Source of the DNA: Baffinella frigidus
Lineage: Eukaryota > Cryptophyceae > Cryptomonadales > Baffinellaceae
Assembly (NCBI GenBank): GCA_026770585.1
Contig: MU647422.1
Coordinates: forward strand, 72,395-92,729
Length of the DNA: 20,335 bases
Reading direction: 5' to 3'
Shown: positions 1,835 to 20,335 of the stretch, piece by piece
Numbering within the stretch: position 1 is the first letter of the stretch
Layout of the letters: each line of letters opens with the position of its first letter
Notes under the pieces: model-generated
Told to the model about the DNA's origin: nothing
Seen by the model: the letters and a program-made list of their open reading frames with translations, nothing else
The model's database searches: none
Made by a program: the position numbers and the translations under genes

Positions 1835-1881
1835 GAGGTTCTGCTGACGGTGCTGACTTGTCCTGTGTGAGGGCTTTCATC

Positions 1882-2012
1882 TCGGACCATACCAGAATCT
1901 GTCCTGATGAAAAGGCGCAAGATAGCATCATTTGATGCCTAAAATAGCATATACACCCTTACCTTCCGCGTGGGGAGCCTAAGATAGCGGGACAGATTCT
2001 GCCTTGGTCCGA
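1882..2012. mobile_element. 131-bp TIR element B, copy 1
   Basis: Terminal inverted repeats of about 23 bp: the left starts TCGGACCATACCAGAATCTG and the right ends AGATTCTGCCTTGGTCCGA. Copies of the same 131-bp length lie at 9490-9620 and 18032-18162. The internal blocks AAGATAGCATC, TTTGATGCC and CACCCTTACCTTCCG are conserved. There is no reading frame, so it is MITE-like. Confidence 0.8.
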
Positions 2013-2029
2013 AATTAGCTTCGGGTTCT

Positions 2030-4097: not shown

Positions 4098-4325
4098 CTT
4101 GAAGCGCTCGGACGCGGAGGTGAGGAGGCGCTCCGAGCGTTTCACCGTGCTGTCCTCCCGGCACAGCTTTCCCTCTTTGACCGCCGTGCGGAGCAGCCCG
4201 ATCCCGATCACGTACTGCTCGGCGGCTTCGAGGGGCTTGTCCCCCGCATCGAGGTCCGCGGCCTTGTGCAGGACCTCGTCCGCCTGCTGCACTGTCCTCG
4301 CCAGATCCCGCGCCCGCTCCGCCAT
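4098..4325 (-). CDS. First exon of an MIT-like domain protein (partial)
   Basis: Starting from ATG at 4325, 76 codons read through two to three amphipathic helices: MAERARDLARTVQQADEVLH, then a helix with DLDAGDKPLEAAEQYVIGIG, then a basic third helix ending SASERFK. The spacing and the 'GD..EAAEQY..GI.LL' pattern resemble MIT (microtubule-interacting and trafficking) domains, found at the N-termini of VPS4, spastin and other ESCRT or microtubule-linked proteins. I cannot say which subfamily. The exon ends at AAG|GTCCAG; past that point the frame runs into repeat sequence, so an intron is likely. The same frame extends upstream to another ATG at 4604, so a start with 93 more residues is possible. 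I chose 4325 because recognisable domain sequence begins there. Downstream exons must lie to the left; candidates are 1062-1150 and 376-425. The gene is head-to-head with the importin gene. Confidence 0.68.
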
Positions 4326-4955: not shown

Positions 4956-5114
4956 ATGGACCTCCAGCAGATCTATGCCGCGCTGCAGTCGACCCTGGCG
5001 AAGGAGGCAACGGAGCGCGACGCGGCTGAGGTGACGCTCAAGTCGTTCGAGGGGCAGCCGTCGTACATGTCCTCGCTCTTCCGCGTGGTCAACTCCGAGG
5101 GGGTGGCTCTCCAG
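4956..5114 (+). CDS. Importin exon 1
   Basis: 53 codons, MDLQQIYAALQ to SEGVALQ, ending CTCCAG|GTGCGG in phase 0. It contains the first helices of the importin-beta N-terminal domain. The sequence CAGGTGCGGCAGGC spanning the donor is repeated exactly at the exon 2 acceptor, so the reading VRQA is present at both ends of intron 1. Confidence 0.9.
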
Positions 5115-8100
5115 GTGCGGCAGGCTCTTTATTTCCCACACCCTAACCTCTAGACCCTGAAGCCCAACCCGCTGTTTTATCGAACCCGAAACTCTGACAC
5201 CCTAGACGCCTGAAAGCCTCAACCCCTGAAACTTTATTACTCTCGACTGAAAAGTGATCAACCACTAACCTAACCACACAGCGGACTTCGAAGGGATTTT
5301 GAATAACCCCTAAGCGACAAGACCTAGGACCCTACAGTAGGCAACCCGTAGCGGCATAGGGGGGTTCTCACGGATAAGGTAACGGAAACTCGGGCACTCA
5401 GCGCCCGAAAACCCCTTCGTAGCCCTGTGTGGACCGCGCGCCGATGGCTGGCTCCGTCATGCAAAAAGCTAACGCCAGCGAGGTACTTAGAGCCTACGGA
5501 TTGCCTACGGTAGGAGCCCCCCTCCTACGACTTTTAAAGACCTTTTTGTTTTTAACGTCGGTACGAGGAGGGGGGTTTCCTACCGTGGGCTAAGGGGTCC
5601 GCTGGCGTTAGCTTGTGGCATTACTCCGTCCACCACCACCAGCCCTCACAGCGAGACCAAATGCCTTGATTTCGGACGTGTGACCCAGGCACATTTAGGG
5701 CTTTAAAACATTGTATCACGGGGTGTCACGTCCAAAATATGTAAAAAAATGAGTTTACTACACGCGACCTGGGTGACGTGACCGGTCACGTCCTGCTCGT
5801 CGCGTGTAGTAAACTTGAGAAAAGAGTCGTGCGAAAAAATAATAGTCGTCTGGTCCTGGTCACGGATCAGGACACGGGTTCGACACCTGATCACGTCCGG
5901 GCCCTGGTTCAGGACTTTTAAATTAAAACGTTTTTGTCATCCAGGCGTATACGCCTGGATGGCAAGGTGAATCCGAGATCTCAGAATCGAGGAATTGGTC
6001 TTGCCGTGAGGGTTAGTGGCAGCCCTTCCAATTTCTCAAATATCCCCCTTCACTGTCTCCCATTTTACCTTGGATCGGGGTCGGATCCGACCCCGGATCA
6101 AGGTAAATCGAACATGCCCCAGAGCACTATTTGAGCCACCTCCCAAGGGCTGGTGGGCCCCAGACATCCTAGTGTTCTCTCGATACAGGTTAATAGGTCA
6201 ACGGCCTGAAAATGGGGTAGTTAGGCCTACGGCATTGCCTAGGACCTCCTACCGTAGGCCGAGACTTTTTGGTCCTAGAGGTCCTAGGCAATGCCGTAGG
6301 CCTAACTACCCCATTTCGAGGGATCCTACGGTAGGAGGTCCTAGGCAATACCGTATGCCTAACTACCCCATTTTCCCGCGGCCTACGGTAGGAGGTCCTA
6401 GGCAATACCGTATGCCTAACTACCCCATTTTCAGGCCGTTAGCCTGTGAAGGTCCTAGAGGGCCCTTACGCCTTGCGTTGAGTGATCGAAACGTGTATGC
6501 GCCCTGATACGCCTTGATACGAGCCCGCCTCGGTACAATGCATACGAGCCCGCCTCAGTACAATACGAGCCCGCCTCGGTACAATGCATACGAGCCCGCC
6601 TCAGTACAATACGAGCCCGCCTCGGTACAATCTATGCATGCGCCTTGATCCGAGCCCGGCTCGGTACGATACTGATACGAGCGCCCCTCGGCACCCTCGG
6701 GACAAACGCAGGTGCGGCAGGCGGGGATCATCTACTTCAAGAACCTGGTCGGGAAGCACTGGGAGCGCGAGGAGCCCGCCGACGAGGATGTGAGTCATCG
6801 AAACGTGCATGCGCCCTGATACGCCTCGATACGAGCCCGCCTCGGTAGAGCCAATCTGGTAGGACTTGGCCAGCGCGAACTTCGAAGTTACAAGATTGCG
6901 AACTTCTGGATGGACCGTAATTATTAGTAAACACCATATTTGTACTGCAAAATTTGAATTTAAAACACTGCATGTCCAAACGGGTCCATCTAGAAGTTCG
7001 CAATCTTGTAACTTCGAAGTTCGCGCTGGCCAAGTCCTACCAGATTGGCTCTATCCACTGTTACTTCTTAAGTTAACAGAGGTTCCAATTTTGCTTTGAG
7101 ACGTTCCACTCTCGACTTTTGTCTCGGTGGGCCGCGCTCTTGGGAAGCAAGAGAAACAATATATACGAGCCTGCCTCGGTACAATTCGAGCACTGGCAGC
7201 GCGAGGAGCCCGCTGACGAGGATGTGAGCCTTTGCTTTTTGCCACCCTAAATCCACTTTTGTGCACCCTAAATCCTAAACCTTTGTGCACCCTAAATCCT
7301 AAACCCGAAACACTTTTTTGCACCCTGAACCAAAACCTTTTTTGCACCCTCAATCCTAAACCCGAAGCTTTTGTGCACCCTAAAACCTTAACCCGAAGCT
7401 TTTGTGCACCCTAAATCCTAAACCCGACGCCCTATCGCGTACACCTTAAAACCCTTTCCCTACACCGTAAACCCTGAACCCTGAACCCTAAACCCTAAAC
7501 CCTAAACCCTAAACCATAAACCCTAAACCCTAAACCCTAAACCCCCGCATTTCATTCTCTCACCCGCGGTGGAGAAGGAGCACCGCACCCGCTCGACCCT
7601 CCCACCAGCGCTCCGAGGTTGCTCAAATAGTGCTCTGGAACTGTTTTTCAAAAGTTGATTTTTGGTACAAAATGTGTCAACCTTTGTCGCAGACACCCCA
7701 GATCTGGGGTGTCGGTCAAGGTACACTGAAAATGTTCCAGACCACTATGTGAGCCACTTCCAAGGGCTAGTGGTGCTCCGCACAGCCCTTCACACCCTTG
7801 ACATCTCGACACCCTCCTCCGCGCAGCCCTTGACACTCAACTCCGCACAGCCCTTGAACCCTGAACCCTGAACGCTCTCGGCAGGGCTACCTAAACCCCA
7901 AACCCTGAACACTAAACGGTCAGAACACCAAACACTCAACCCTAGACCCCAAACCCCAAACCCTGAACCCTGAACGCGCTCGGCAGGGCTACCGCTGGGT
8001 TATCGCGGAGGAGGAGCGGACCTTCATCCGCTCAACGCTCCTCGAAGCGCTCATTGCCGCCCACCCTCTGTGCCGCCAACAGGTCCTCTCCACACCCCCA

Positions 8101-11012
8101 TGTGCCGCCAGCAGGACCTTCCCGCTCCAAAGTTGACGGGGTTGTACTGACTGACCTTGAACCGTTGAAAGATTCGTCGAAGGGCTCATTGCCGCCCACC
8201 CTCTGTGCCGCCAGCAGGTCCTCTCTCAGAAAACTCTCAGAAAAGAAATCATTGACAGGCTTATGAGGAAACTAGGGGAAACATATTCCCAATGAAGGAA
8301 ATTATTTTCGTTTTCATTCCACCCCCATGTGCCGCCAGTAGGACCTTTCCGCTCCAAGGTTGACGGGGTTGTACTGACCTTGATCCGTTGAAAGATTCCT
8401 CGAAGCGCTCATTGCCGCTCATCCCCTATGCCGCCAACAGGTCCTTTCCGCTCCAGCTCTGCATCCCACGGCACACCATCATAGCCCTCACCATCATAGC
8501 CCTCTGCACAAACCTCCAGCAAACGATCAGATGTCAGCTTTTCCTCGACCCAAACTTGACGGGGGTGTACCACGAACCCTGCCAACCCCCACAGCGGGCT
8601 TCGAAGGGATTTTCGGCGCGTTTCGGGCCGAGTTTCCGTAACCTTATCCGTAGGGACCCCCTTATGTCCCTCCGGGTTGCCTACCGTAGGGTCGTAGGTC
8701 TTGTCGCTTTGGGGGTTATTCAAAATCTCTTTGAAGTCCGCTGTGTGGGGGTTATTCAAAATCTCTTTAAAGTCCGCTGTGTGGCTGAGGATAGTCCGTC
8801 AACCCGAGTGAGAAAGAGCTATCGCTATGAAGCGTTAGGAGGCCGGAAGAGGATCCCTCCTCGGAGGAACAGCCCCGCCGGCAGGCTCGTGAACGCCCGC
8901 GTGACCGGTCACGCGGACGCCGAAGCCAGACGGTCGGTCGTGACTGCCTTGCGTGTAAGGTCAGACCAGTATCTGAGACTAGTCTCGCGGTCGCAGCTCT
9001 GCTCGCGGCTGGACCATGGAACCTCTACCTCTGAAGCGTGAGGAGGCCGAAAGAGGGTCCCTCCTCGGAGGGTCCCTCCACCCTTAGGGTTCAGGGTTTA
9101 GGGTTTAGGGTTTAGGGTTCCTCGGAGGGACCCTCCGCAGGCCTCCTCAGGCCTGAGGGGTACACGGCCTACGCCACTAACTCGATGTTTGGGCAGGCGT
9201 GTGTGTGCAACGAAGCGTCGCATGTCATCGCCAATGCGATGCCTCAGCCGGATGATCCACACAGGGACCTAGGGATTTCGTAGTGGGACGGATCGAAGGC
9301 TGGTAAACAACAATGTGTACCTCTTTTTATATAAAAAACTACAGGTGGAAAACCCGATTTGAGCCGCTTCGGGTTGCTGGTGGCAGGTGGGGGTCCGCGC
9401 AAAGTTGACAGATTTATGGGTGAGTTGACTTTGGAAACAGGCTAATTTGATACGCAGGGCATCATCGCGTGGTGGGGGTCAATCTCATCTCGGAACATAC
9501 CTGAATCTGTCCTGATAAAAAGGCGTAAGATAGTATCTTTTGATGCCTAAAATAGCATATGCACCCTTACCTTCCGTGTGGGGAGCCTAAGATAGCGGGG
9601 CAGATTCCGTCTTGTTCCGAAGTTAAATCGACGGCGTGTACACTTCAACGACGGCGTGAATATTCACCCTGGCTCGTCCTAGGCAGGTCCTAGGGCCCTA
9701 CCGTAGGGCGTATGAGCATACAGGTGGGGGTCAATCGACGGCGTTTACACTTTAAACTGCACCTCCTGGGGGGAACCCCGTTTTTAGAAAACCGGTTTTA
9801 AGCCGCGACGGGTTGTCGGTGGCCCGCAGGTCCGGTTGTAAGCAAACCCGAACCCCAAAACCCGAACCCCGAACTCAGAAACCAGAACCCAGAAACCAGA
9901 ACCCAGAACCCAGAACCCAGAAACCAGAACCCTCAACCCCGAACCCCAAACCCCAAACCCATAACCTGCAGGTGGCGGAATCCCTGCGAAAAATCACAAA
10001 CCTCGACTTCCCGGACAAGATGCCCGACCTCCTCGGCCAGGTCCGATAACAGACTATTCGAAAGTTGACGTTTTGGATTCGTGGTACAAATCCGTCAGCA
10101 TTGGAGTGGAAAAGGCCTCCTCGGCCAGGTCCGATACCACACAGTGGACTACGGACCTTTCATCAAAAGTCAACTTGCCCTGAGGGCAGTTAACTTTAAG
10201 GATTCTCTACTGCACATTTGGTCTCGTTGCCGCTAAGCTAAATCTAGGGGTCCCGAACCCCTCGAAGCCCACCGTGTGGATAGACTATTCAAAAGTTGAC
10301 GTTTTGAATTCGTGGTACAAATCCGTCAACATTGGAGTGGAAAACGCCTCCTCGGCCAGGATAGCAGACTATTTCTAGCTCTGCCTCGGTTTGTTTGGGC
10401 TCAACCATTTGGTCAGCGCGGGCTCTTTTCCGCTCCAAAGTTGACGGATTTGTTCCAAACGCCCAGCATGTCAACTTGAGAATAGTCGGCCAACCCGGCT
10501 GAGGCAGAGCTAGTATTCGCAAGTTGACTTTTTTGAGTCCGCGGTACAAACCCGTCAACTTCCGAGCGAACCCCCCTCGGCCAGGTCCCGTAACAGACTA
10601 TCCTAAAGTTGACACCCCGGGGGTGGTGGTACAAATCCGTCAACTTTGGAGCGAAAAACACCCCCCCAGCCCCCAAATGCCGAACCTGAAACAGATTGCG
10701 GAGAGGCTGGACGTGTCGCTCCCGCCCGAGCAGATCAAAGCCGCCCTGACCGCCCTCCGCGTCTTGACCAAGAACTACGAGTACGTCCTCTCTGTCTCTT
10801 TCGCTCTCTCGCTCTCTCTCTCTCTCTCGCTCTCGCTCTCTCTCTCGCTCTCTCTCTCTCTCGCTCTCTCTCTCGTACCCTCTTAACGTACGTCCCTTGA
10901 CAACTCCACTGCTACCCAGGATATTTTACCTTGAGTCAACAAAACTGATCCTTGGTAGTAAGTTACCATTTTGTTGAGATGGACTTGCTCTGGGGGCAGG
11001 CATTTGACGTAC

Positions 11013-11060
<48 letters not shown>

Positions 11061-11517
11061 GCTCTCTCTCTCGCTCTCTCCCTCTCTCTCTCGTACCCTC
11101 TTAACGGTCCTGTCAACAGGTCCCAATCTAGTGAAAAGGGGTCAACTCAGTGAAAAGGGGTCAACTTAGTGAAAAGGGATCAACTGACCAACTACGCACC
11201 GTACGAGCACGTCCCTTGACAGCTCCCTTTGCAGACTATTCTCAAGTTGCCACTCTGGACGTCCCTTGCCAATCCTCAAGTTGACATGATGGGGTTGTGG
11301 TACGAATCCGTCAACTTTGGACGAATCCGTCAACTTTGGCGCGGGGCAGCCCCCCTGGGGGCATGTTCCGCTCGGTTGAAACTTTGGAGCGGGAAAGAGC
11401 CTGAGCTCACCAGATTGTTGAGCCCAAGTAGATAGATATCGATCGCTCCTCTCGACTCGACACTCAACGTTGCTCTTCTCCTCATGAGGCGTCCTCACCA
11501 AGAACTACGAGTACGTC

Positions 11518-11573
<56 letters not shown>

Positions 11574-14500
11574 CTCTCTCTCTCTCTCGACCAACGATAC
11601 CCCCGCTCGGGGACCCGAGCGGACCAAAGCCGCCCCTACTGTCCTCCGGGTCCTCACTAACAACCAAGAGTACACCCGAAACCGTGAACCATGAACCCGG
11701 AGCCCTCAACCCTAAACCATGAACTCTAAACCATGAGCCCTAAATCCTAAACCCTTAACCGTGAATCGAAGGGGGGAAACAGATCTATGCATCCTAAACC
11801 AGGAGCCAGGAATCCAAACCCCTAAACCCTAAACCCTAAACCCTAAAACCTAAACCCTAAACCCTGACCCCTAAGGAGGCAACCACCCCCCACGGGTCCT
11901 AGCTCTGCCTCAGTCGGGTTGACTGATCGTGTCCACACCAAAAGTTGACGGAACCCGAAACGCTGACGCAGGTACAAGTCAGCGGAGCGGAACCATGAAT
12001 CCTAAACCCTAAACTAGGAGCCATGACTCCAAACCCCCAAACCCTACACCCTGAACCCTAACGCCCTGACTCAGGTACAAGTCAGCGGAGCGGAACCATG
12101 GATCCTAAACCCTAAACTAGGAGCCATGACTCCAAACCCCCAAACCCTAAACCCTAACGCCCTGACGCAGGTACAAGTCAGCGGAGCGGCGCAAGGCGCT
12201 CAATGAAATCCTCTCCGCAACCTTCACGCGGGTAAGCCCTAACCCCTAAAAGGTCTTTGCTTTTTTGCACCCTAAATCCTAAACCCGAAGCCCTATATCC
12301 TAAACTCGAAGCCCCGACGCCCTATCGCGTACGCCTTAAACCCGGCGCAAGGCGCTCAACGAAATCCTCTCCGCAACCTTCACGAGGGTGAACCCCTGAA
12401 ACCCTCACCCCTAAACGGGTGAAACCCTAAAACCCTAACCCCTGAAACCCCAACCCCTAAACCCCACACGGCGCTCAACGAAATACTCGCCGCAACTTTC
12501 ACGCGGGTAACCCCTTTTGTTGCGCCCTAATCCTTGTTTTGCACCCTGAATCTTTTTTTGCACCATAAATCCTAGACCCTGAACCCTAGACTCTGAACCC
12601 TGAACCCTAACCCCTAAACCCCAACCCAGAACCCTAAACCCTAAACCCTAAACCCTAAACCCTAAACCCTAAACCCTAAACCCTGAACCCTGAACCCTGA
12701 ACCAGGTGCAAGCTGTTATGGAGGCGACTCTGACGGCACCCCTGGGAGACGAGGTGCGATAGGGTTCAGGGTGTAGGGTGTGGGGTGTGGGGTTTAGGGT
12801 GCAGGATTCAGAGTTTGGGGGGGGGGGGGGTAGCGGGTAGCGGGTAGCGGGTAGCAAGTAGCGGGTAACAAGTAGCAAGTAGCTGGTAGCAAGTAGCGGT
12901 TAGAGGTTGACGGTTAGCGGTTAGGTGTGGGGTGTGGGGTTTAGGGTGCAGGATTCAGAGTTTGGGGGTAGAGGTTGGCGGTTGGCGGTTGGCAGTTGGC
13001 GGTGAGCGGTTAGGGTTTCAGAGTTTCAGGTTGCAGGTTTGGGTTTCGGGGTTAGGGTTTCAGGGTGCAGGTTTGGGGGTGGCTCACCGAAATCCTCGCC
13101 GCCGCGTTTGCGCGGGTCCAAGCTTCCACGCCACGCCAGGGCACTCGAAACATCCACTTTTGACATCTTTCAAGGGAAATGCCTCGAATTTTTAAGTCAA
13201 CCGCGCCAGATCTGGCGCGGATAAGGCGTCGGTTTCCCTCGATCATTCTGGCGTGGTGTGATTGAGGCCACTCTGACCGTGCCCCTGGGCGGCGAGGTCT
13301 AGCTGTGCCCCACTCGGGTTGACTGTCAGACTATTCCCAAGTTGCCATGCTGGGGTTGCGGTTCCAATTCGCCAACGTTGGAGCGGAAAAGAGCACAGTT
13401 GGACCCTAATTAATTTAATAGGGTTCGGGGTTTAGTGTTCATAATTTAGGGTTCAAGCAGGCCTAATTAAACCACTTTCGTATCGTTAAGTTGACCAACG
13501 CGCTTTGTGTGCAGTTGAATTTGGCCTGATAGGCTAACTGAATAGGCCCAATTAGGCTTATTAAAGAGGCCTAATTAGGCTAAATGAGTAGGCCTAATTA
13601 GGCTAATTAAATAGGCCTAGTTAGGCTAATGAAATTGTGACAGGACAAGTTGCCAAGGTGCTAAGGTGCTAAGTTGAAAAACGCGTTAAGTTGCTAAGGT
13701 TAAGTTGCTAAGGTGCTAAGTTGACAAAAACGCGTACCGTGAGCAGGTGGCAGCGGAGATGCAGAAGATCATGATCAAGGCCATGTGGTCTTCTTGCCAT
13801 TCCTCGCTCCCGCTCTACCTCCAGAACGGCGAGTCCCTACTCCTTAAACACTAAACACTCAACACGCATGCCACTCTTCGCTCCCTCTCTACCTCCAGAA
13901 CGGCGAGACTCTGAACACTAAACACTAATCTCTACACACTAAACACTAAACACTAAACACTTAACACTAAACCCTCATCTCTACACACTACACACTAAAC
14001 ACTAAATACAAAATACAAAACCATTCCTCGCTCCCGCTCTACCTCCAGAACGGCGAGTCCCTACTCCCTAAACACTAATCTCTACACACTAAAAACTAAA
14101 CAGTCATCTCTACACACTAAACACTACACACTCATCTCTACAGACGAAACACTACACACTCATCTCTACACACTAAACACTAAACACTAATCTCTACACA
14201 CGAAACACTACACACTAAACACTCAGCACTAAACCCTACCTCGCTCCCGCTCTACCTCCAGAACGGCGAGTCCCCAACCCCTAAACACTCAATCCCGCTC
14301 TAACTCGAGAACGGCAAGACCCTCATCCCTAAACACTAAACCCTGAACACTAAACACTAAACACTAAACCCTGAACACTACCTAAACCCTAAACACTAAA
14401 CACTAAACACTAAACCCTAAACCCTAAACCCTAAACCCTAAACCCTACCTAAATCCTAAACACTAAACACTTAACACTAAATACAAAACCCTAAACCATT

Positions 14501-17500
14501 CCTCGCTCCCGCTCTACCTCCAGAACGGCGAGACCCTAATCCCTAATCACTAAACACTAAACACTTAACCCTGAACACTCAACCCTAAACCCTAAACCCA
14601 AAACCAGGCGAGATCTTCATGTCGTGGATGTCCCTCATGTACCGTGTGATCCAGGTGAATCATCCTAAACCCTAAACCCTAAACCCTGAACCCTAAACCC
14701 TAAACCCCAAACCCCAAACCCCAAACCCCAAACCCCTAAACCCCCAAAACCCAGGCGCCCAATAAACCCCAAACCCTAAAAAAACCTACGCTACCCCAAA
14801 CCCCTAAAACGCTACCCTACCCTACCGCTACCCCAAACCCCTAAAACACTACCCTACCCTACAGGCGCCTGTGCCGCCCTCGGCCGTGGGCAAACCCGGC
14901 GAGGACAACAAGGCAAACCCCAACCCCAAAACCCCAAACTCATAACCCCCCAACCCCCAACTCCCAACCCCCAACCCCTCAACCCTCCACCCCAAACCAC
15001 TAAACCCTGAACCCTGAACCCTGAACCCTGAAACAGGAGATGGACAAGATGGTGTTCTGGAAATACTAAATACCAAACCCCAAACCCCAAACCCCAAACC
15101 CACAACCCCTAAACCCAAAACCCAAAACCCAAAACCCAAAACCCAAAACCCAAAACCCACAACCCCCAAACCCACAACCCTAAATCCTAAACCCCAAACC
15201 CCAAACCCCAAACCCCAAACCACTTGACCCTAAACGCTGAACCCTGAAACCTAAACCCCAAATCCTGAACCCTGAACCTGAACCTACAACCTGAACCCTG
15301 AACCCTGAACCCTGAACCCTGAACCCTGAACCCTGAACCAGGAGATGGACAAGATGGTGTTCTGGAAGTGCCGCTTGCACCTCAAACCCACAACCCCCAA
15401 CCCCTAAACCCCAAACCCCAAACCCCAAACCCCAAACCCCAAACCCCAAACCACTAAACCCTAAACCCAGACCTCTGAAACAGGAGATGGACAAGATATG
15501 TGTTCTGGAAGTGCAAACCCCTAAACCCCAAACCACTAACCCCTGAACCCTGGTTACTGGTTACTGACCCCCTCCACAGGAGATGGACAAGATGGTGTTC
15601 TGGAAGTGCAAGCGGCGCGCCGCCCAGATCCTGCACCGCCTCTTCCAAAAGTGTGTACTCCACACGGAGGGCTACCCACACACGTTATCGCTAAATCCAG
15701 GGGTCCCGAAACCCTCGAAGCTCACCGTGTGAGCTTCGAGCGGCGCGCCGCCCAGATCCTGCACCGCCTCTTTTACAAGTGCGTACTCCACTCCGAGCCA
15801 GAACATTTCACCTAAGTCAACTCCGCCTGAAAACTACAGCCTTAAGTCAAATGCCGGCTCCCAGAGCCGGTCCATCTAAACGAAATGGCCACTTACTGCC
15901 GAGGATCAGGTTTGTTGACTTAACTTAAAATATCCTGGCTGGCAGTGTACTCCTAGCTCTGCCCCAGTAAATTTGGGCTCGCCATTATTTCGCCCCCCCG
16001 GAAATTTCGGAGGTGGATTTTGACACCCCCCCCATGAAATTTACCTGTGAAATTTCGGGGGGGCGAAATGATGGCGAGCCCAAATCCAAGTGGGACAGAG
16101 CTAGTACTCCACACAGAGGGCTACGAAGGGATTTCCCTGCCGTGCGAGGTTTCGCTGTGTTGCATACCGTACCGCGGTTTCGAGAAGAGTGTCCCGCCGG
16201 CAGGCTCGTGAACGGCCCTTTTTACCCCGCGAAAAGGCGTCTTGTGGCCTCGAACCCACAGAAGAGTGTCCCTACTGTGGTGCATACCGTAGGAAGGCCC
16301 ATATATCTAGGGCGCTATGACGGTCCTAGGGGGGGGGGGTGCGCTTTCTTATGAGCGAGGTATCCCTGTAGTCAACCCTGGTTAGGATTAGTCAAACACG
16401 AGGCTGAAGCCACCGGCCACCTCTTCCGCACAGCCTCTTTCAGAAGTAACCCTCGAAACTCAAACCCTAAACCCCAAACACTAGATCCTAAACCCTAAAA
16501 TCCTTACCCCGACACCCTAGACCCCAACCCCTAAAACCTGACGCCCTGAAAAACCCTGGAAGCTTAACCCCGAACCCTACACCAAAAAAATCTGAAATCT
16601 GAACCCCAAACCTTAACCCCTAAACCAAACCCTAAACCCTAAATTAGGTACGGCAACAAGAAGATCGCGGAGAAGCAGTTTGGAGAGGAGCGTGCTGGCG
16701 AGGTGTCTCCCTGCACCCTGAACCATAATCCATAAACCCTACACCCTAAACTCTGAACCCGAAACCCTAAACCCGAAACCATCAACAATGCAAAACGAAC
16801 AACAAACCATAACAAACAATACACCATAAACACACAATAAACAATGAACAATAAACAATGTTTAAACAATAAACAATTAACCATAAACAATAAACAATAA
16901 ACAATAAACAATCAACTATAAACAATAAACCATAAACAATAACAACGAACCCCTCAAGTACCAGCCCGGAACGCAGGTGGCGATCTCAGTGGCCTTCCAA
17001 ACCCTGAACCATAATCTATAAACCATAAACCATAAACCATAAACCATACACCATAAACCTTAGGTCTCCAGAGACATTCCTCCAGAGACATTTCTCCAGA
17101 GACATTTCTCCTGACCATAAACCCTGAACCATAGTCCATAATCCATAAACCATAAACCATAAACCATAAACCATAAACCTTAGGTCTCCAGAGACATTTC
17201 TCCTGAACCGTAAGCCCGGAACGCAGGTGGCTCCCAAAACCCTGATCCATAATCTATAATCCATAAACCATACACCATAAACCTTAGGTCTCCAGAGACA
17301 TTTCTCCAGAGACATTTCTCCAGAGATATTTCTCCTGAACCGTAAGCCCGAAATGCAGGTGGCAACCTCAGTGGCGTTCCACGACCATAAACCCTGAACC
17401 ATAAACCATAAACCATAAACCATAAACCATAAACCATAAACCATAAACCTTAGGTCTCCAGAGATATTTCTCCTGAACCGTAAGCCCGAAACGCATTTCT

Positions 17501-20335: not shown

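Follow-up and report, generated by a model that had tools for sequence, protein, structure and literature searches.

The introns of an importin-7-like gene contain many copies of the ends and starts of the exons that flank them, most of them still joined to a splice site, and these copies (here called echoes) are very likely the remnants of many separate, local, head-to-tail tandem duplications that crossed exon–intron junctions and were hidden by splicing. The appearance and lengthening of introns are usually inferred from a few ambiguous cases. In the importin gene, about thirty copies with 76–100% identity accompany a source exon that is still in place, other loci of the same genome are alike, and the sequence keeps a record of the growth of its introns. 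This makes it possible to measure directly how often duplication occurs, which breakpoints are tolerated, and how true splice sites are chosen over decoys.

Gene structure and intron age

The window (the whole stretch of 20,335 nucleotides that was analyzed) lies at the end of the contig labelled C999 in an assembly of 382,457,362 bases and 1,364 contigs. According to the gene model, positions 4956–20335 (plus strand) hold the first 17 exons and 16 introns of the importin-7-like gene, with splicing deduced from the reading frame and homology. The frame is open across all 17 exons and yields 379 amino acids, the 17th exon being cut by the contig end. The product matches the Pfam family IBN_N (2.8e-15), with DUF5682 as a second match below its cut-off, and its residues 8–379 align with importin 7 (6n88; 7.1e-40). 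The exons measure 34–159 nt and the introns 210–1,889 nt; 14 of the donors are GT, and two (introns 8 and 10) are GC. The upstream neighbor is divergent, with its first exon at 4098–4325 on the minus strand. The product of this exon has a weak match to the MIT domain (0.00054, below the Pfam cut-off), and the exon, the sole one tested of the upstream gene, had no echo at a score of at least 12.

Eight related proteins from metagenome records (P0001–P0008) are 47–66% identical to the importin-7-like product, for which a set of viral contigs (viral_contigs) yielded no relative. Because at least 6 of 11 relatives (P0001–P0008 and a few more distant ones) continue without a break across 15 of the 16 intron positions, the introns look lineage-specific, that is, gained, with loss in the relatives as an alternative; position 10 falls in a poorly conserved loop and is unscorable for presence in the relatives. 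P0008 is likely genomic because it is encoded on a 23,750-base contig, and the other relatives may be transcripts.

Copies of exon edges in the importin introns

Every importin exon was compared with every intron at score thresholds of at least 12 and at least 15. The lower threshold gave 32 exon–intron matches, of which 29 were in adjacent introns and 3 elsewhere (one of the latter being the end of exon 6 in intron 7), against 1 reverse-complement match and an average of 0.1 per shuffle over 20 dinucleotide shuffles. At the higher threshold, 24 matches were adjacent, and none was far, reverse-complement, or found in the 20 dinucleotide shuffles. The echoes reported by the sequence-only reading are thus real, and the count against shuffled controls that it had proposed gives an excess in the importin gene. 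The sidedness is strict at a score of at least 12: all 18 adjacent copies flagged as exon ends are downstream of their exon, and all 7 flagged as exon starts are upstream. Four of the 29 adjacent matches have no edge flag, and two of these (exons 5 and 11) reach the junction with mismatches. The edge copies are 13 to 65 nt long and are cut off at the end opposite the retained splice site. Direct orientation and adjacency, as expected for tandem duplication, were found both in the importin gene and in a second multi-exon gene (L011, see below), and the reading frame of the importin gene is unaffected as far as the deduced splicing goes, the 379-residue frame matching importin 7.

Echoes are present in 11 of the 16 introns. 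No echo of the neighboring exons was found at a score of at least 12 in intron 9, between exons 9 (14608–14654) and 10 (14865–14912, GC donor), or in introns 14, 15, and 16, which separate exons 14 (19431–19471), 15 (19737–19790), 16 (20031–20064), and 17 (20289–20335). The intron-by-intron list of the sequence-only reading holds for introns 2, 3, 4 (three copies), 5, 6 (two copies), 8 (five copies), 10 (three copies), and 11, and the exceptions are given where they occur.

Intron 1, between exon 1 (4956–5114) and exon 2 (6712–6789), had been said to carry a repeat at both splice sites, and this proved to be a 14-nt direct repeat. Its donor side consists of the last 3 bases of exon 1 and positions 5115–5125 and matches the start of exon 2; its length exceeds all 240 cross-pair controls (maximum 9). 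A 57-nt segment of intron 1 (6479–6535) is repeated at 6791–6847 with 94.7% identity, and since this piece recurs directly after the exon 2 donor, a longer segment including the whole of exon 2 is suggested to have been duplicated once. Large palindromic elements are located at 2550–2711, 6190–6450, and 6846–7053, and the arms 6846–6916 and 6983–7053 are 99% complementary. Intron 2 contains an echo of the end of exon 2, followed by GT (7189–7223, 33/35), and, by local repeat comparison, an echo of the acceptor and first bases of exon 3 (7863–7891).

Introns 3 and 4 contain tandem arrays. After exon 3 (7987–8082), two partial echoes of its end (8093–8114 and 8319–8337) accompany two long ones, which belong to unit 2 (8153–8217) and unit 3 (8376–8440). 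The units share intron sequence (32/34 between two pieces), and one of them has an insert. The end of exon 4 (9972–10040) recurs in unit 2 (10116–10128), in unit 3, where the GT is lost (10347–10359), and in unit 4 (10575–10587, by array comparison); intron sequence is common to the four units, with 60/63 identity between units 1 and 2. Intron 5 follows exon 5 (10695–10780) and has, as had been listed, two echoes of the end of exon 5, one with its CT-rich intron start (11489–11510) and one more diverged (11614–11669), and two of the start of exon 6 (11972–11990 and 12075–12093). The end of exon 6 (12171–12231) is found twice in intron 6 (12343–12387 and 12467–12506). Copies of exons 6 and 7 had been reported in intron 7, which follows exon 7 (12706–12753), and both were recovered as diverged echoes, that of the exon 6 end at 13082–13115 (26/34, 76% identical) and that of exon 7 at 13257–13296 (32/40, 80% identical).

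The end of exon 8 (13747–13828, GC donor) is echoed five times in intron 8 (13869–13902, 14021–14052, 14234–14265, 14288–14313, and 14496–14527), which makes six units counting the real exon edge; the shared intron parts are repeat-rich. Upstream of exon 11 (15580–15650), intron 10 contains three start echoes (15037–15062, 15342–15371, and 15484–15516), which probably arose in separate events because their exon end positions differ (26, 30, and 32). Intron 11 contains one echo of the exon 11 end (15739–15778). Three starts of exon 13 had been claimed for intron 12, between exon 12 (16648–16702) and exon 13 (17641–17703). Two of them are clear (16977–16999 and 17359–17387), but of the third, just the acceptor with a few bases of the exon is left.

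In intron 13, a first tandem unit of 213 nt, composed of the end of exon 13 and the start of intron 13 (17655–17867), is followed by a second (17868–18197) that begins with an echo (17868–17916) and includes an inserted MITE-like element; the exon parts of the two units are identical (49/49), and so is nearly all of the next intron part (70/71). The element is 141 nt long (18027–18167) and has AATT on both sides, and unit 1 is without it and has AACT at that place. Comparison of the two units shows that the element entered unit 2 after the duplication. The MITE-like family (~141 nt) has at least three copies in the window (1875–2017, 9485–9625, and 18027–18167), which are 88–95% alike among the matches listed and carry apparent 4-nt target repeats. 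Two mobile-element patterns had no match in viral_contigs, and one had none in genome_contigs. Echoes of the exon 13 end continue in unit 3 (18198–18246) and at 18436–18461, in agreement with the three copies that had been described. The claimed copy of the exon 14 start was less substantial: it is a match of just 5 exon bases in the first unit of a 130-bp tandem array with 3.8 copies (18878–19432). This array ends at the exon 14 acceptor, so that the acceptor would lie inside a satellite unit.

Units of duplication and the case for break repair

That the units arose by tandem duplication across junctions, as the sequence-only reading had suggested among other possibilities, agrees with direct, adjacent copies on the correct side and with the intron sequence shared between units. 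A unit spanning both sides of the junction is clear in introns 3, 4, and 13, repeat-rich in intron 8, and unclear for 6 of the 30 copies examined, which share 5 nt of intron or less with the original. These six are the copies of exon 2, of exon 3 at 8337, of exon 5 at 11669, of exon 6 in intron 7, of exon 7, and of the exon 11 start at 15484. In several other copies among the 30, the shared intron part is a simple repeat. The six copies would need a later rearrangement or a repair-type event at that place.

An origin of the copies in double-strand-break repair, by staggered-end fill-in or templated filler and not by clean tandem duplication, would account directly for copies that join unrelated intron within 5 nt of the splice site. 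The 14-nt repeat flanking intron 1 also resembles those of new Daphnia introns, which reportedly have short flanking repeats. However, in the clearest arrays, the units have intron sequence in common, no reversed or non-adjacent copies were found in the importin gene at a score of at least 15, and a flanking direct repeat beyond the control range was found in intron 1 only. We regard break repair as an unlikely general source, if the best placed of the alternatives.

Proposed mechanism

Here, we propose that the echoes accumulated by tandem duplication under the cover of splicing. When a duplicated segment reaches from inside an exon into the following intron, the exon end and the intron start would be present twice over. 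The first copy, which is attached to the exon, would be spliced, and the second copy and its donor would be concealed within the intron. At acceptors, the converse event would leave exon-start copies upstream, and duplications confined to the intron would be equally hidden. Duplications within an exon, or those adding a working exon, would alter the protein and be removed by selection, and this is probably why truncated edges are seen and exon middles are not. The arrays would later be extended as echoes were themselves copied, would acquire mobile elements and telomere-like repeats, and would decay.

The copies are local, direct, and side-specific, intron sequence is common to the units of introns 3, 4, and 13, one unit records a later insertion, and the pattern recurs at other loci. 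The mutational source was probably replication slippage, template switching, or unequal exchange, and selection presumably acts as the filter, with exon-attached sites being those that are spliced.

The sequence-only reading had envisaged a serial re-targeting of the same exon edge that pushes older copies inward, and this is only partly right. A strict order with older copies deeper fails in introns 8 and 10, where the copies at the greatest distance match the exon at 100% identity. Nor was the exon edge the only template: echoes also appear to have been copied from echoes because the two long echoes of exon 3 share derived changes and the two start echoes of exon 6 share a breakpoint.

Are exon edges special?

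Whether the edges attract duplication was judged by two measures. Probes of 24 nt, for which a nearby copy was counted at a score of at least 16, found a copy near 10 of 32 edges, at 344 of 1,500 deep intron positions, and at 1 of 20 exon-interior positions, the interior probes being taken from the longer exons only. Among the 32 edges, 13 were covered by non-simple local repeats, as were 4 of the 17 exon middles and 26.3% of the deep unmasked intron bases; without masking, the values were 24/32, 8/17, and 52.3%, respectively. By the probe test, the edges appear to resemble intron and to differ from the exon interior, and by the coverage test, even the exon middles (4/17) appear close to intron. 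Since edges behave approximately like deep intron and exon interiors are rarely duplicated, random duplication filtered by splicing fits better than edge targeting; it seems that duplications arise anywhere and persist wherever they are concealed by splicing. Edge-targeted insertion, which the sequence-only reading had raised, is not preferred after these tests, in which the edges had no clear preference over deep intron. Its further remark, that it knew of no ordinary mechanism behind so systematic a trail, does not hold: tandem duplication filtered by splicing can do so, and single cases are described in the available text of two publications (PMC4974935, PMC2812944).

A related possibility is that splice junctions are duplication hotspots because of breaks, stalled forks, or adjoining telomere-like repeats. 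The coverage of the edges compared with that of the deep intron (binomial 0.055) leans in this direction, and many junctions are bordered by telomere-like repeats. When random units were placed by simulation on the geometry of the gene, 76% were intron-only, 6.8% crossed one donor, 6.1% crossed one acceptor, and 11% included whole exons. A real edge is included in 22 of 38 local repeat pairs, a larger share than the 24% of simulated units holding at least one junction, the two measures being not strictly comparable. On the other hand, the fixed 24-nt probes give a small gap between edges and deep intron (31% versus 23%), and exon-anchored copies should be easier to recognize because selection keeps one of the two. 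This easier recognition, together with the later copying of echoes, may explain the excess of 22/38, and a mild hotspot at the edges may also contribute. Junction hotspots as the main cause are improbable on this evidence, and splicing-filtered tandem duplication remains our preferred reading.

Other loci of the same genome

The pooled set consisted of eight readable stretches on four contigs, a small sample in which some stretches were picked for lying next to readable sequence. Of 20 places sampled at first, 13 consisted entirely of N and 3 were wholly or partly readable, and later sampling added four mainly readable stretches and one of N only. For all genes but the importin, exons were assigned manually or predicted. 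Edge echoes were found for 28 of the 61 pooled curated and predicted exons, with 55 right-sided and 1 wrong-sided edge matches, in a tally that omits matches touching neither edge and those more than 1,200 nt away or beyond the next exon. The expected splice dinucleotide was present at 33 of 36 end echoes (GT or GC) and at 16 of 19 start echoes (AG). Exons with end echoes outnumbered those with start echoes (16 versus 8), and the difference was not significant in this set (p 0.15).

The second multi-exon gene, L011 on contig C350, was modeled manually with 13 exons. Its echoes were 17 adjacent, 0 far, and 0 reversed at a score of at least 15, and 21, 2, and 0, respectively, at a score of at least 12. 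Exons 9 and 10 of this model do not join in phase, and an exon may therefore be missing. In cross-tests between the two genes, with one serving for training and the other for testing, the exon finder placed 9 of 15 and 7 of 11 exons exactly; before the score cut, it also called 22 and 9 exons in excess. Trained on both and used at a score of at least 15, it predicted 58 exons in five stretches, 40 of them with a local copy. Downstream copies comprised 59 ends, 3 starts, and 5 middles, and upstream copies comprised 26 starts, 4 ends, and 8 middles; nine copies were reversed, eight of these in L011, and one copy lay in another locus. This tally is inflated because some of the predicted exons look like echoes themselves. 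In a fresh stretch (L021, contig C800), four of seven predicted exons were echoed, with 4 downstream end copies, 6 upstream start copies, 1 middle copy, and none reversed. The single predicted exon in each of L015 and L017 had no echo. This speaks against a genome-wide process, as do the echo-free exon of the upstream minus-strand gene and an excess of inverted over direct local repeats in L017 (0.145 versus 0.106) and in the part of the window upstream of the importin gene (0.307 versus 0.037). The peptides of L011 and L020 had no Pfam match above the cut-off, and the product of L020 may, from a motif reading, be an ion-channel-like protein.

The importin introns are also rich in telomere-like heptamers (CCCTAAA type), which are strongly one-stranded (249 C-rich versus 14 G-rich) with the exceptions of intron 3 (5:6) and intron 7 (1:8). 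The corresponding C:G counts are 199:15 in L011, 188:7 in L018, 194:12 in L019, and 141:1 in the inferred gene sense of L020, with L021 as an exception (34:25). The CCCTAAA repeat has neither GT nor AG, so splicing may select its strand.

Continual junction-crossing tandem duplication may be the main engine of intron growth genome-wide in this lineage, and perhaps of intron birth. We offer this extension tentatively and at less than even likelihood, as its genome-wide extent is extrapolated from four contigs. If it is true, introns would store old copies of exon edges whose decoy splice sites are still intact, the splicing machinery would cope by using only the sites attached to a full exon, and the divergence between exon and echo would be usable as a clock of intron growth.

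Mobile introns, alternative exons, and assembly

Repeated insertion of introner-type mobile introns at AG|GT, duplicating the exon edge, had been put forward by the sequence-only reading. The apparent gain of the introns (15/16 sites without a break in at least 6 of the 11 relatives), the 14-nt repeat flanking intron 1, the MITE-like elements in introns, and the short repeats shared by introns 2 and 6 near the donor or its echo would be in keeping with it. However, the in-register flanking repeats are no longer than those of mismatched intron pairs, intron 1 excepted (mean 4.75 for the true pairs with intron 1 included, 4.03 for the mismatched ones), and a regular flanking repeat of the target-site type was not found at the ends of the 16 introns. 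The edge copies vary in length from 13 to 65 nt, and no intron family extending from donor to acceptor was noticed among the matches listed for the 16 introns. Likewise, the in-register repeat of the next exon start with AG|GT at both ends, as required by a Rogers-type gain test, did not characterize these introns, intron 1 alone exceeding 9. Introner-type insertion is thus very unlikely to have produced the echoes.

It is still less credible that the echoes are alternative or tandem exons included in some mRNAs: a splice dinucleotide is kept in most of them (33/36 and 16/19), but the copies are incomplete at their other end, and one exon edge has five copies. An assembly artefact, which the near identity of two intron 13 units over 120 nt could suggest, is the least probable explanation, given echo identities of 78–100% in the pooled set, derived changes common to echoes, an element in just one unit, and the occurrence of the pattern in stretches on four contigs.

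Comparison with known systems

In the open-licence papers searched, we noticed no case in which exon edges are echoed serially in most introns of a gene and at several loci of a genome. The closest published cases, as described in the available text of each source, share parts of the process proposed here. In a potato RdRp gene, a tandem duplication crosses an intron–exon boundary (PMC4974935); as in the importin gene, the unit extends across one splice junction, and what was once exon sequence lies inside an intron. The potato case is one event in one gene that made a new intron, whereas here many events at many junctions mainly lengthened introns. Human segmental-duplication genes have internal tandem repeats at exon–intron boundaries, with 27 intron modifications (PMC2812944). 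Both systems seem to involve a minisatellite-type expansion that changes the length of exon and intron; the human examples are recent paralogs, whereas the echoes described here affect the majority of the introns in a single importin gene and further loci of the same genome.

AGGT-type duplication and intron sliding, as treated in a review and in Drosophila (PMC3443670, PMC2891723), likewise depend on splicing to hide a tandem duplication and leave the protein unchanged. In the available text of these sources, new introns arise from exon sequence, whereas the duplications here overlap existing introns, and a long flanking repeat is kept by intron 1 only. Introners (PMC9860276) also give many apparently lineage-specific introns. 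Their mechanism, as far as that source describes it, is different: among the matches listed, the 16 importin introns have neither a shared family nor a regular flanking repeat. Single duplications of this kind are thus known, and what appears new against the papers searched is a process that, in the importin gene and its companion loci, is gene-wide and multi-locus.
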